A stretch of 48,953 bases of DNA from Prosthecobacter sp. GTDB lineage: Bacteria; Verrucomicrobiota; Verrucomicrobiia; Verrucomicrobiales; Verrucomicrobiaceae. Under the pieces are notes generated by a model. That model did not search any database, was not told the DNA's origin, and was given only the letters and a program-made list of their open reading frames with translations. The position numbers and the translations under genes were made by a program. How positions within the stretch are numbered: the first letter of the stretch is position 1; the number at the start of each line of letters is the position of its first letter. The stretch is taken from the NCBI GenBank assembly GCA_030827515.1, contig JAUREI010000007.1, forward strand, positions 1-48,953. The letters run 5' to 3'. Of the stretch, positions 43,217 through 47,490 are shown piece by piece.

Positions 43217-44074
43217 TCACCCCTGCGCGGCCAGTGCGGCGGCGGCCTTCGCCTTCGCCTCCTCGGCCTTGCGCAGGATCTCGTCGGGACTCGGCAGCGA
43301 GGCAAGCACGTCCATGGGAATGAAACCGTCACTGACCAGCTTGGTCAGGCACTTCTTGCGTTCATCAAGCGCCTTGTCCGGACTGCGCTCCTTGCTGAAG
43401 CGGCTTTTTGCGGCGGCGCTGCGATCCTTGAGGGCGGCATAGATGTCGCCGCCGAGCAGCGAGGAAATGTCGACTTTCATTTTTTCACGGCCGTGGTCGG
43501 CCGCACTGACCTCGTCGCCGTTGATCGGTCCCCCCTGATACTTCGGGAACATGATCGCGACCTCGGGACAGACGCGCGAACAGGCCGGACAGTTCGTCTT
43601 GCAGTTGTCGTTGTTCTGCACCTGGATCTTGTTGTCGGCGCTGACGCCGTAGACGTCGAACAGGCAGAAGCTTAGACACTGCATGCAGTTCGTGCAGCGC
43701 GAGTAATCGATGACCGGAAACCAGGGTTTCCATCGGCCCGGCTCGTTCATTGGCCGGACGCCGCGCGCCTGCTCGACGAGGGACAGCACTCCGTCGGCCT
43801 CCAGACCGGAGATGTCGCGGGCCTGAATGGAAACCCTGCCCTCGGCATCTTCCACCTCGGGGGCCAGCCCCGTCTCGAAGGCGCCAAGCACCAGCAGCGT
43901 GTGGTCGTCGTTGGCACGCGCCGCCGCACCGCCACTGGAGCCGACACGGGACACGGCGTAACCCTTGTCGAGCAGCGCCGCGAGAACGCGGGCGCGGGCC
44001 TCGGGCGGCAGCGGGATGGCGCCGCGGCCTTCGTAAAGAACGATGCGCAGAGGTCGGGCGGTGTGGGTGATCAT
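43217..44074 (-). CDS. 2x[4Fe-4S] ferredoxin-domain protein
   Basis: A 285-residue cytoplasmic protein. Residues 1-110 form an alpha/beta domain of unknown type ([34 protein letters not shown]). The ferredoxin-like centre has two cysteine clusters: Cys127, Cys130, Cys133, Cys137 ([11 protein letters not shown]) and Cys158, Cys162, Cys165, Cys169 ([13 protein letters not shown]), enough for two [4Fe-4S] clusters. The C-terminal 90 residues are charged and helical. Its ATG overlaps the stop of the small cysteine protein (ATGA). It may hand electrons to the radical SAM enzyme two genes upstream; that is inference from context. Confidence 0.85.
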
Positions 44075-44421
44075 GGGGTCACGGGTGGGGTGGAGGCATC
44101 GACGAGCAGGGCGGAGGTGATCTCCGCAGCCTGTGCGGTGCGCATGTTGAGAATGTCGGCATCCTCCGGCAAGGGCGCGCCGGCCTGGTGGAACAGGCCG
44201 CGCACGGCGCGCGGATAGCAGGCGGCGATGCGCAGTTTGCCAGCGGCGGCCAGTTCCTTCAGGCGCGGATCACGATGGGCTGCCATTTCGCAGAGATCGG
44301 CCACGGATTCAAAGCTGGCGCCTGACTCGGACAACTGCTGCAGGACCTCATTTTTGACGCCGGTCGGCACGACCTGGGCGTAGGCGCAGCGGCAATAGAG
44401 AAGCGTGGGGGTGTCGGACAT
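44071..44421 (-). CDS. Small cysteine-containing protein of the radical SAM operon
   Basis: A 116-residue protein of unknown family. It starts with LLYCRCAYAQVVP, holding Cys10 and Cys12, and has further cysteines at 44 (VADLCEMAA) and 68 (IAACYPRAVRGLF). The four cysteines could bind a metal or Fe-S cluster, or act as redox thiols; the general style recalls small pieces of HdrA-like proteins, but I cannot place it. Translation is coupled to the ferredoxin gene downstream (ATGA overlap), and the radical SAM gene ends 24 bases upstream. Confidence 0.75.
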   Translation of the reverse strand: MSDTPTLLYCRCAYAQVVPTGVKNEVLQQLSESGASFESVADLCEMAAHRDPRLKELAAAGKLRIAACYPRAVRGLFHQAGAPLPEDADILNMRTAQAAEITSALLVDASTPPVTP

Positions 44422-44445
44422 GGTTTCTGCGGGACGGAGAACGGC

Positions 44446-45672
44446 TCAGGCCGAGGGAGAATGGGCCTTCGGGTCGAGCTGATGGTAAACGCCGAAGTCG
44501 TGGTAAAAGAAGCGCTTGGCGAGCCGGTACATCCAGTGTTTTTCGGGAATTTCCTCCTCCTCGCGCCACTGGCTGGTGCGGGCGTGCATGGCGCCGACCT
44601 CGGCCAGCGCGGTCTGGCGGATGGTCGTGTCGGCGGCACCGTGTTTGAGCGCCAACTCCTTCACCAGGTCGGGCCGTTCCAGCACGATGCATCCGCGGGT
44701 GTGACGGGCGGCGGTCTCACGGAAATCCTTGAGGAAGGCCGAACCGGTGAAGACGTCGAAGAGGTCGCGGTCGGTTCGCACGTTCTCCTTGGCGAACTGG
44801 ATGATTGGGCAGGGTTCAAGGCCGCCGGTGGGCCCGATGTGATGACTGATGCCGGTAGCCATGGGACAGAGCGCCCGGCCGTCGTGGTCGTAGTAGGCAT
44901 CGACGATGGCGATGGGCATCTCGGCGCGCATCGAGGTGACAAAGCGCCGCACCTGGCTGATCTGTCCGGGGGTCAGTGCCAGCTGCTCGTTGATCTGGGG
45001 GCCGACCGGGCGGTAGGTATGGTACCAGGTGTAGTGCACCCCCATGGCGATGAGCTTCTCCAGCCATTCGCGGGTGAGCAGGTCGCCGATATTGGTCTGG
45101 CAGAGGCTGGTGGCAACCCCGGTGAGCAGGCGGGCGTCAAGGCAGTTGCGCAGGCCGCGAAGGGTGCGATTGAGCACGTCCTTGTTGCCGCGGCGTTCAT
45201 CGCTGACCGTGCTGTTGCCCTCGACGCTGACCAGTGGCGTGGCATTGCCCAGCTTGCGCAGCGACTCCGCCGTCTTGGCGGTGATGAGCTGGCCGTTGGT
45301 GAAGATCTGAAAGTAGCAGTCGGGATGCAGGGCCAGCAGGTCGAGCAGTTCCGGGTGCATGAAAGGCTCGCCGCCGAGCAGGCCGAAGAAGGCGTTGCCG
45401 TGCCGCTTGGCGTCGTGGATGATCTTGTTGAGTTCGTCGAGCGAGATCGCCTCGCGCGGTTTGTCGACGTCGACCCAGCAGCCCTGGCAGCGCAGGTTGC
45501 AGGAGTTGAGGATCGAAATGTAGAGGAAGGGTGGGAAGAACTGCCCCTCCTCCATCCGCTTCTTGAACAGGAGAACCGAGCGCGCGCCCTTGTAGCCAAA
45601 GTTCCAGGCGATTTTGGCCAGGCACTTCGGGTCCACCGTGGTGAGCATGCGCCGGGTGAGGGAGACAATCAT
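44446..45672 (-). CDS. Radical SAM protein with C-terminal cysteine-rich extension
   Basis: A 408-residue radical SAM enzyme. The [4Fe-4S] motif is Cys58, Cys62, Cys65 (SCNLRCQGCW), followed by GGEPFMHPELL and other core strands (YFQIFTNGQLI, VSVEGN). The last third contains Cys residues in ALCPMATG, LEPCPI and RGCIVLE, the arrangement of SPASM/twitch-type auxiliary cluster sites. An N-terminal helical part (1-45) precedes the core. The substrate is unknown. It follows the GcvH-like gene by 91 bases and is followed by the cysteine protein and ferredoxin genes on the same strand. Confidence 0.9.
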   Translation of the reverse strand: MIVSLTRRMLTTVDPKCLAKIAWNFGYKGARSVLLFKKRMEEGQFFPPFLYISILNSCNLRCQGCWVDVDKPREAISLDELNKIIHDAKRHGNAFFGLLGGEPFMHPELLDLLALHPDCYFQIFTNGQLITAKTAESLRKLGNATPLVSVEGNSTVSDERRGNKDVLNRTLRGLRNCLDARLLTGVATSLCQTNIGDLLTREWLEKLIAMGVHYTWYHTYRPVGPQINEQLALTPGQISQVRRFVTSMRAEMPIAIVDAYYDHDGRALCPMATGISHHIGPTGGLEPCPIIQFAKENVRTDRDLFDVFTGSAFLKDFRETAARHTRGCIVLERPDLVKELALKHGAADTTIRQTALAEVGAMHARTSQWREEEEIPEKHWMYRLAKRFFYHDFGVYHQLDPKAHSPSA

Positions 45673-45763
45673 TCGCAGGTTGGGGGGATGGGGGTGGGGG
45701 GCTTTCCGTCAGCCCGAATGAGCATAACGCACAACCGTGCGCATTCCGTCATGCAAAGCGGCA

Positions 45764-46243
45764 TCATTCCTCGCCGGTCCCTTCTTCTCCATGCCCCTCT
45801 TCGGCCATGCGCTGAATGATCCCAGAGAGGTGTTCGATGTAGCCGTGGACGTCAAGGTGCCCCTCCTCGGGTTCTCCCCGCACGGCATACAGCCAGCCGA
45901 CTTCGTAGGGATCCGAGCGGACGACACAGGCATCCTGCTTGAGATGGGGATTGCCGCCGGCAAAGCCACCCTGCATGACGGCATAGACGTCGGAGGCCGC
46001 CTTGAAGCCCTCGACCCAGCCCACAATGCTGCCGGGCGTCACCTCCCCGCCCTCGGGGATCTTCCATTCGCAGTCGACCAGTTCACCAAGCATGCGCGTG
46101 GCAAACTTCGTGAAACCCACCCGCCACAGACCGGGATCGCCCTCCACGGGCGCCATCCAATAGTGGCTGCGGGAATAGCGGTAGGCCTCGGGAAAACGGG
46201 CGGAAAAGCGGGCGTGCTTGAAGCGGACAGTGGGCAGGGACAT
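45764..46243 (-). CDS. GcvH-like lipoyl-carrier protein
   Basis: A 159-residue homologue of the glycine cleavage H protein. The H-protein pattern is clear: YRYSRSHYWM (cf. the usual YT..HEW), VGFTKFATRMLGELV, GSIVGWVEGFKAASDVYAVMQG with the lipoylated lysine at residue 81, and DPYEVGWLYAVR. The normal ESVKA context is changed to EGFKA, and there is a 35-residue acidic C-terminal tail. No other glycine-cleavage gene is near; the neighbours are radical SAM, cysteine-protein and ferredoxin genes. This suggests a dedicated carrier role rather than glycine catabolism. The start at 46243 matches the domain; the frame is open a little further upstream. Confidence 0.88.
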   Translation of the reverse strand: MSLPTVRFKHARFSARFPEAYRYSRSHYWMAPVEGDPGLWRVGFTKFATRMLGELVDCEWKIPEGGEVTPGSIVGWVEGFKAASDVYAVMQGGFAGGNPHLKQDACVVRSDPYEVGWLYAVRGEPEEGHLDVHGYIEHLSGIIQRMAEEGHGEEGTGEE

Positions 46244-46293: not shown

Positions 46294-47490
46294 TCACTTA
46301 GCGCGCTCGAGGACGACGCGAACGACGCGCCCCTCGGAGTTGCGGGCCAACACATGCCCGTTCGCCAGAACCGGCGCGCTCCAGCACTTGCCATTGAGGA
46401 TCTGGGCGCGGCTTTCGGGGTCAAAGCCGTCCGGTTTCGCCGGGGCGACAATCAACTCGCCCTTGGAACTCAGCACGATGAGCCGGCCATCGGCGGCGGT
46501 GAGTGAGCCAAAGCCGACCTCCTTCGCGTCCCACATCTCGCTGCCATCGCCGAGACGGACGCATTTCAGGGCGCAGCGGCTGTTCTGGTCGCCATCGATG
46601 CCATACAGATGACCGTCGATGAGCACGCTGGAATTGAACTGGTTCTTCAGGTTCTTGTTTTCCCAGACCTTTTCAGGTTCAGCGGCACCGAGCTTGATCA
46701 GGGTGCAGCCCTTGTTGTAGCCGCTGGAGATGAAGAGGGTCTCCCCCGAGAGGATTGGATCGGCGGCATTGACACCGTAGCGGGTGTTCCAGCGGTAGGA
46801 CCAGGCCGGCTTGCCGGTGGCAACCTCCACCGCAAGGTAGGCGGTGCCAGAGCCGATCACCGCCAGTCGCTGTCCCTGCCAGGTGATTGGATACGGCGTT
46901 GAGTAACCGGCGGCATCATCCTCGCTCTTCCAGACGATCCTGCCGGTGGTCTTGTCCACGCCCATGCCGGCCTTGCCGACATTGAGCAGAAGCAGGTCGC
47001 CCTCGACCAGCGGCGCGCCGGCAAAGCCCCAGTCGGGCAGATTCGCCCCGGTTTCCTTCTGCACGTTCTTCTCCCACACCACCTTGCCGGTGGCCGCCTC
47101 CAGACAGAACAGGTCACCCCAGCGGCTCAAATGATACACCTTGTCGCCATCACAGGTCGGGGTCGCGGAGGTGCCCCCCTCGTAATACTTGTCGCCGAGG
47201 TCGGCCGGATAGCTATGCTTCCACAACACGCTGCCGGTCTTCTCATCCAGGCAGAACACCGTGTCGGCACCGTCGGCATGACCGGTGGTGAGCACGCGGC
47301 CGTCGGCGACCACAAAAGAGGCGAAGCCGAGGCCGACTTCAGCCTCCCAAAGGATCTTCGGATCGGAGGACAGGACCCAACCGGTCTCGGTGGCAATGCC
47401 GTCGCGGTTCGATCCGCGCCAGACCGGCCAATCGGCCGCGGCAGCCTCGCCAAGCAGGAGGGTGGTGAACAGGAATGGGGCAACTTTCAT
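46294..47490 (-). CDS. Exported PQQ-type beta-propeller protein
   Basis: A 398-residue periplasmic protein with a signal peptide (MKVAPFLFTTLLLGEAAAA) and a seven- to eight-bladed propeller of PQQ-binding-like repeats. Blade motifs include VFCLDEKTGSVLWKHSYP, LFCLEAATGKVVWEKNVQ and YLAVEVATGKPAWSYRW. The opening DWPVWRGSNRDGIATE is characteristic of the secreted PQQ-like propellers of planctomycetes and Verrucomicrobiota, which usually lack dehydrogenase activity. It lies 50 bases upstream of the GcvH-like gene on the same strand and may head the operon. The long upstream open frame is antisense to the dehydrogenase gene and is not used. Confidence 0.9.
   Translation of the reverse strand: MKVAPFLFTTLLLGEAAAADWPVWRGSNRDGIATETGWVLSSDPKILWEAEVGLGFASFVVADGRVLTTGHADGADTVFCLDEKTGSVLWKHSYPADLGDKYYEGGTSATPTCDGDKVYHLSRWGDLFCLEAATGKVVWEKNVQKETGANLPDWGFAGAPLVEGDLLLLNVGKAGMGVDKTTGRIVWKSEDDAAGYSTPYPITWQGQRLAVIGSGTAYLAVEVATGKPAWSYRWNTRYGVNAADPILSGETLFISSGYNKGCTLIKLGAAEPEKVWENKNLKNQFNSSVLIDGHLYGIDGDQNSRCALKCVRLGDGSEMWDAKEVGFGSLTAADGRLIVLSSKGELIVAPAKPDGFDPESRAQILNGKCWSAPVLANGHVLARNSEGRVVRVVLERAK

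Follow-up and report, generated by a model that had tools for sequence, protein, structure and literature searches.

Described proteins with which the genes considered here invite comparison are the H-protein of glycine cleavage (GcvH), the lipoyl carrier LbpA of the sHdr sulfur pathway, which has two conserved cysteines near its N- and C-termini that GcvH lacks (PMC6067878), and the radical S-adenosylmethionine (SAM) lipoyl synthases LipA and LipS1/LipS2, for which octanoyl groups on carrier proteins are the site of sulfur insertion (PMC10332631). We analysed a stretch of 48,953 nucleotides from Prosthecobacter sp. (contig JAUREI010000007.1, positions 1 to 48,953; hereafter the window), in which a first-pass annotation had noted four neighbouring genes for a GcvH-like carrier, a radical SAM enzyme, a small four-cysteine protein and a ferredoxin, and had proposed an uncharacterised pathway around the lipoyl carrier. 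We consider it rather likely that these genes, together with a fifth, form the redox part of an undescribed conserved pathway that makes and modifies an isoprenoid, with the GcvH-like protein as partner of the radical SAM enzyme. The original observation is confirmed and its interpretation partly supported: the genes are a functional unit, but the core of the pathway consists of an HdrA-N::ferredoxin protein, the radical SAM enzyme, a DUF116::synthase and cyclases, and the lipoyl protein is lineage-specific. No description of this gene set was found in the open-access literature, which leaves most subscription papers uncovered.

Co-inheritance of the gene set with isoprenoid enzymes

All four open reading frames lie on the minus strand as annotated, and their GCV_H, Radical_SAM and Fer4 domains were recovered by Pfam. 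They encode the GcvH-like carrier (159 aa, 45764-46243, ATG at 46243; PF01597 E 8e-18), the radical SAM enzyme (408 aa, 44446-45672; PF04055 E 1.7e-15), the 116-aa four-cysteine protein (44071-44421), called HdrA-N because hhalign relates it, as a free-standing domain, to the N-terminal Fe-S domain of HdrA, and a 2x[4Fe-4S] ferredoxin-domain protein (285 aa, 43217-44074; Fer4 families). The first two genes are separated by 91 nucleotides and the second and third by 24, and the 116-aa and ferredoxin genes share the 4-nucleotide overlap (ATGA) that had been reported.

These genes are inherited together. Among 56 related genomes, HdrA-N is carried by 44, the radical SAM enzyme by 44, the GcvH-like protein by 43, a CobW GTPase by 44, a DUF116::polyprenyl synthase fusion by 43 and a squalene-cyclase-like protein by 40. 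Of the 44 genomes with the 116-aa gene, 43 also have the GcvH-like gene, which is absent from all 12 genomes that lack the 116-aa gene. Measured against the 116-aa gene and taken without regard to phylogeny, Fisher p is 2e-11 for the GcvH-like gene, 9e-10 for the radical SAM gene and 1e-9 to 6e-9 for synthase, cyclase and CobW. The whole set is missing from six f2, three f6 and two of seven f3 genomes (f, L, C and G are our own labels for families, loci, contigs and genomes), although a fragmented assembly may lack a gene only because data are missing, and ordinary GcvH stays in genomes without the module. The f3 split provides the most independent evidence of co-inheritance. In most genomes the radical SAM and GcvH-like genes stand apart from the 116-aa/ferredoxin pair, often on other contigs, yet they are gained and lost together. 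Lack of linkage in other genomes, which had been put forward as a refuting condition, is frequent but in that form does not count against the set, since the genes are co-inherited; the four window genes are a functional set. The unlinked remainder of the pathway had escaped the first-pass annotation: in the window's own genome the DUF116::synthase is encoded on C167, the cyclase on C256 and CobW on C91.

In distant families of the phylum, the 116-aa homologue is fused directly to a 2x[4Fe-4S] domain, giving a protein of ~250 aa. A scan of one-per-species GTDB genomes returned 427 relatives of this HdrA-N::ferredoxin fusion, of which 80 loci were kept; genes outside the window were called with our own codon-usage caller. 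A recurrent operon emerges, in the order PQQ (pyrroloquinoline quinone)-type propeller, HdrA-N::ferredoxin, radical SAM enzyme, DUF116::polyprenyl synthase, a ~300-aa prenyltransferase toroid, a ~570-aa squalene-cyclase-like protein, and a propeller, NHL protein, twin-arginine translocation (Tat) ferredoxin or NapH-like protein. The DUF116::synthase is found near the fusion in 69 of the kept loci, the toroid in 58, the radical SAM enzyme in 53 and the cyclase in 51, in Kiritimatiellota, Lentisphaerota, Verrucomicrobiota, Planctomycetota, Bacteroidales and a few others. In one f3 locus (L035), from the window's own order, the genes for GcvH-like, CobW, radical SAM, HdrA-N, ferredoxin, DUF116::synthase, toroid and cyclase all stand in one row. 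The conserved centre of the system is HdrA-N::ferredoxin, radical SAM enzyme, DUF116::polyprenyl synthase and cyclases, and not the lipoyl protein.

The isoprenoid enzymes, all encoded outside the window, retain their catalytic motifs. The polyprenyl synthase (PF00348 E 1e-39) conserves the aspartate-rich HDDIEDxD and YQIxDD motifs (89 sequences), and seven DUF116 cysteines are invariant or nearly so in alignments of 62-94 sequences. The cyclase carries an SQHop_cyclase domain (PF13243 E 8e-40) in which D302, D304 and D305 of PDADDT, a DxDD motif, are invariant in 62 sequences. Squalene-hopene cyclases are its nearest solved structures; its 99.4 bits do not reach the 431-bit cut-off of the hopene cyclase equivalog TIGR01507. 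No squalene synthase was recognised in the conserved operon. The PDB matches of the toroid are weak and confined to Rab geranylgeranyltransferase beta subunits (~37 aligned residues, E ~0.002). Since it resembles the beta subunits of protein prenyltransferases, it might attach an isoprenoid to a protein or small acceptor, with the radical SAM and Fe-S proteins making or modifying that acceptor as a prenylated cofactor or electron carrier; the exported propellers, NHL proteins, Tat ferredoxins and NapH-like membrane Fe-S proteins encoded in operons of several phyla are what an electron-carrier system might include. We nevertheless regard this account as unlikely, because the invariant DxDD protonation motif of the larger cyclase-like protein argues for cyclisation, the match of the toroid is weak and the recurrent neighbours include no recognisable alpha-subunit-like partner.

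The fifth same-strand gene of the window, also overlooked before, encodes an exported PQQ_2/BamB-type beta-propeller (398 aa, 46294-47490, minus strand; PF13360 E 5.5e-31) and lies 50 nucleotides upstream of the GcvH-like gene. It adjoins that gene in about a dozen congeners, and in other classes and phyla PQQ-type propeller genes are likewise found next to the gene for HdrA-N::ferredoxin. The propeller gene probably heads the transcription unit of the GcvH-like gene and its neighbours; membership is probable rather than proven because these bacteria have many PQQ propellers.

The radical SAM enzyme and its iron-sulfur neighbours

The radical SAM protein has an invariant CxxxCxxC motif (C58, C62, C65; 94 sequences) within a PF04055 domain that scores over its cut-off. 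Its extra C-terminal cysteines, remarked on in the first-pass annotation, are C269, C288 and C328, invariant in the 94 relatives. No listed NCBIfam model reaches its cut-off, and by sequence its nearest relative of solved structure is BlsE (7vob). The first proposal, that the radical SAM enzyme works with an electron donor dedicated to it, here the ferredoxin, is the natural reading of this pair. Separately, the radical SAM gene of an 'Alphaproteobacteria' metagenome-assembled genome is almost identical to a Bacteroidales one (L319:10876-12048, L332:2478-3650; tree branches 0.01), through either mis-binning or recent transfer.

The 116-aa protein had been described as a four-cysteine protein of no known kind. 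Its four cysteines (C10, C12, C44, C68) are indeed 90-100% conserved in 68 relatives and it has no Pfam or NCBIfam match, but a relationship to HdrA had been missed. The CxC...C...AC pattern resembles that of the N-terminal Fe-S domain of HdrA. When the PDB was searched with a profile of the fusion, matches were essentially to its ferredoxin half, so kinship with HdrA was tested by profile comparison and by fold. Against HdrA N-termini from the same phylum (loci L356, L357, L359, L360), hhalign scored the 116-aa profile at 32.6 (E 1e-5), where the highest of 60 column shuffles reached 20.7 and the reversed profile 18.9, in an alignment that offsets the third cysteine by ~3 columns. The AlphaFold model (predicted local distance difference test score, pLDDT, 93.6) matched HdrA chains of three organisms at Z 6.3-6.9 over 106-109 of 116 residues, with unrelated Rossmann-like folds scoring the same or higher, to Z 7.7. 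By the profile comparison the 116-aa protein is a remote relative of the HdrA N-terminal domain; the fold match is consistent with this but no more than suggestive. A PDB search with the single sequence returned mostly designed repeat proteins over ~30 residues, which we took as chance. The FAD/thioredoxin-reductase domain of HdrA is missing throughout: the 116-aa protein stops after the N-domain, and the fusions go straight to ferredoxin. None of the called window genes was recognised as hdrA-, hdrB- or hdrC-like (HdrB and HdrC were not searched genome-wide), and the window's genome contains no HdrA at E<=1e-100. Full HdrA is encoded in f22 genomes that carry the GcvH-like protein (L356, L358, L359); L357 and L360 are further HdrA loci.

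The eight cluster cysteines of the ferredoxin protein are invariant. Its residues 1-108 (window 43751-44074) form a cysteine-free N-terminal domain whose order of strands and helices is like that of HdrA-N, and which may be a decayed HdrA-N copy. Homology was not accepted on sequence (hhalign 16.7 versus 15.3 for the best shuffle); with a sequence signal near noise and a low-confidence model (mean pLDDT 56), the decayed-copy idea draws on strand and helix order alone.

In some lineages, genes for a NuoE/F- and NuoG-like diaphorase stand directly upstream of the HdrA-N::ferredoxin gene (L277:2023-6155, L295:5802-9985), and such genes also occur near it in L289, L320, L325, L326, L328 and L341. 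Their position suggests NAD(P)H as an electron source.

The GcvH-like protein

The carrier was said to have an intact lysine in an altered motif, and this holds. The predicted lipoyl attachment site, Lys81 (codon AAG at 46001-46003 in plus-strand numbering, gene on the minus strand), sits in GWVEGFKAASDVY, where the canonical H-protein has ESVKAASDIY, and the glutamate at -3 is retained. K81 and E78 are invariant in 31 relatives, and divergent f22 homologues keep the lysine with glutamate at -3 (EGLKAVT). The protein has a family-specific C-terminal extension, DVHGYI..L...I, and a single invariant cysteine, C106, located mid-protein and missing from the f22 homologues. It scores 63.3 bits against the GcvH equivalog TIGR00527, short of the 115.85-bit cut-off, and is also below the cut-off of NF002270. 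As a GCV_H-domain protein with the lipoyl lysine, it is probably lipoylated at Lys81.

Where the GcvH-like protein occurs, it accompanies one lineage of the radical SAM enzyme. Of 241 genomes sampled across the phylum, 44 encode the radical SAM enzyme and ten the GcvH-like protein, all ten falling within the 44. In the radical SAM tree every GcvH-like genome belongs to one clade of 21 (support 100/100); the CobW GTPase likewise goes with one radical SAM subclade. The two genes adjoin each other in f1, f3 and f22, in two opposite orders. Since most lineages with the conserved centre have no GcvH-like gene nearby or in the sampled genome, the GcvH-like protein is a lineage-specific partner rather than a general substrate carrier: it belongs with one radical SAM lineage, outside the pathway core. 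Chemistry at its lipoyl arm, as the first-pass annotation envisaged, is possible.

COX1 is present in eight of the ten GcvH-like genomes and in four of the 34 other radical-SAM genomes (p 1e-4, uncorrected and from few lineages). That the GcvH-like protein marks aerobic lineages is no more than a hint, given two carriers without COX1 and the few lineages sampled, and we did not adopt it. One of the COX1 matches, G095:C3:14026-15366, contains 10 in-frame TGA codons and no other stops, with a normal COX1 copy on C1; TGA recoding or a contaminant contig of organelle origin would fit this picture.

The radical SAM enzyme could instead act on the GcvH-like protein itself, in a lipoyl-synthase-like maturation of the Lys81 acyl group with HdrA-N and the ferredoxin as donor. 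Known lipoyl synthases are radical SAM enzymes (PMC10332631), and the adjacency of the two genes in several families would fit. We think this improbable, because LipA is already encoded in the genome (TIGR00510, C302, 388.9 bits, over cut-off), where C302 is the only TIGR00510 match over cut-off and no match falls on the window contig, C21; the 25 best NCBIfam matches of the radical SAM protein include no lipA-type model; and the excess of genomes with the radical SAM enzyme over those with GcvH-like (44 against 10 of 241) argues that the general substrate is not GcvH-like.

It is very improbable that the GcvH-like protein is a spare glycine-cleavage H-protein with unrelated neighbours. It does fall in Pfam GCV_H and shares ~30-40% identity with the ordinary H-proteins, which supply a second match in nearly all of the 56 genomes, but the window's genome encodes a canonical GcvH with ESVKAASDIY on C111 (L248), and GcvH-like is missing wherever the module is missing while ordinary GcvH is kept. 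The earlier conclusion that this is not glycine cleavage therefore stands; no gcvT or gcvP was recognised by eye among the called window genes, the rest of the genome not having been searched for them. Least probable of all is a reduced sHdr-like sulfur pathway, with GcvH-like as LbpA and HdrA-N as an sHdrA remnant: a lipoyl carrier and an HdrA-related protein in one operon do recall sHdr-LbpA (PMC6067878), but no HdrB or HdrC was recognised in the operon, both LbpA-specific cysteines are missing, no lipoate ligase/LipS1/LipS2 cassette was seen within the window, the genome has no HdrA at the threshold given above, and the partners are isoprenoid enzymes rather than sulfurtransferases, in keeping with the annotation's own rejection of sHdr.

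Proposed pathway and comparison with described systems

From family knowledge and gene context, we propose that the DUF116::polyprenyl-diphosphate-synthase fusion would build an isoprenoid chain, which the squalene-cyclase-like DxDD enzyme would cyclise, so that the product is probably polycyclic. The radical SAM enzyme would modify the isoprenoid, or a compound attached to it, in a radical reaction, and HdrA-N and the ferredoxin would act as an Fe-S relay supplying it with low-potential electrons, drawn in some lineages perhaps from the NuoF/NuoG-like diaphorase (L277, L295). In Verrucomicrobiales and a few relatives, the probably lipoylated GcvH-like protein and the CobW GTPase would have joined this pathway, and the lipoyl arm would most likely serve the radical SAM step, either by acting as thiol reductant or hydrogen donor or by carrying an intermediate. 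What the analysis demonstrates is the co-inheritance, the conservation of the operon, the domain fusion and the integrity of the catalytic motifs; the direction of electron flow, the isoprenoid product and the lipoylation and partner role of the GcvH-like protein are deduced from these and from what is known of the families. A more specific version, which we hold only tentatively and on balance doubt, has a lipoylated H-protein paralogue serving a radical SAM enzyme of isoprenoid biosynthesis, fed by HdrA-N and the ferredoxin, with a polycyclic isoprenoid made in Planctomycetota-Verrucomicrobiota-Chlamydiota (PVC) bacteria and Bacteroidales, and with lipoate acting outside central carbon metabolism and sulfur oxidation.

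Several points weigh against the isoprenoid pathway or against the part given in it to the GcvH-like protein. The co-occurrence p-values ignore phylogeny, and 35 of the 56 genomes belong to one genus. In most Verrucomicrobiales the genes for synthase and cyclase lie apart from those of the window, and co-occurrence is what connects them there. In many Planctomycetota, the slot between the HdrA-N::ferredoxin and DUF116::synthase genes holds an unrelated radical SAM family nearest TIGR04013 (mostly Planctomycetota loci L289, L313, L320, L322-L324, L326, L327, L333, L335, L337, L341 and L344; for example L341:10967-12502). The same 21-member radical SAM clade holds five loci without GcvH-like nearby, as judged from the neighbourhoods covered, and a simple account in which GcvH-like was added for aerobic life fails because two COX1-negative genomes carry it.

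The proposed isoprenoid pathway brings together, in a single scheme open to test and with a clear gene list, a GcvH paralogue and a radical SAM subfamily that were both orphans, DUF116 and an HdrA domain that stands alone; bacteria with the gene set include many uncultured and some cultured ones. Should a polycyclic isoprenoid indeed be produced, it would be a bacterial lipid or cofactor of a new class, possibly of value as a biomarker; should the GcvH-like protein prove to be lipoylated and required, protein-bound lipoate would gain a further role beyond carbon metabolism and sulfur oxidation.

Compared with described systems, each component is familiar in part. With sHdr-LbpA the window shares a GcvH-like lipoyl carrier that works outside glycine cleavage and is encoded beside an HdrA-related Fe-S protein, whereas its carrier lacks the N- and C-terminal cysteine pair of LbpA, its operon has neither the FAD domain of HdrA nor a lipoate ligase cassette, and the set is co-inherited with isoprenoid enzymes. 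With HdrA it shares the CxC...C...(A/S)C pattern and a ferredoxin domain as partner or fused, and the fold may be compatible, while the thioredoxin-reductase/FAD domain that lies between N-domain and ferredoxin in HdrA is missing, leaving a free-standing protein or a direct ~250-aa fusion. The GCV_H domain and the lipoyl lysine with glutamate at -3 are common to the glycine cleavage H-protein and GcvH-like; the latter has the altered motif VEGFKAASDVY and the C-terminal extension DVHGYI..L...I, in a genome with its own GcvH. SPASM/twitch-type radical SAM enzymes (NirJ, AhbC, BlsE, HpnH) likewise combine a radical SAM core with additional C-terminal cysteines, but the window enzyme has only three invariant ones and scores far below the cut-offs of those family models, and it is a separate subfamily. 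Finally, the module cyclase has the SQHop_cyclase domains and invariant DxDD of squalene-hopene cyclase and the bacterial class II terpene cyclases, and differs from squalene-hopene cyclase in falling below the curated cut-offs and in being accompanied by a DUF116::polyprenyl synthase and one separate toroid protein.

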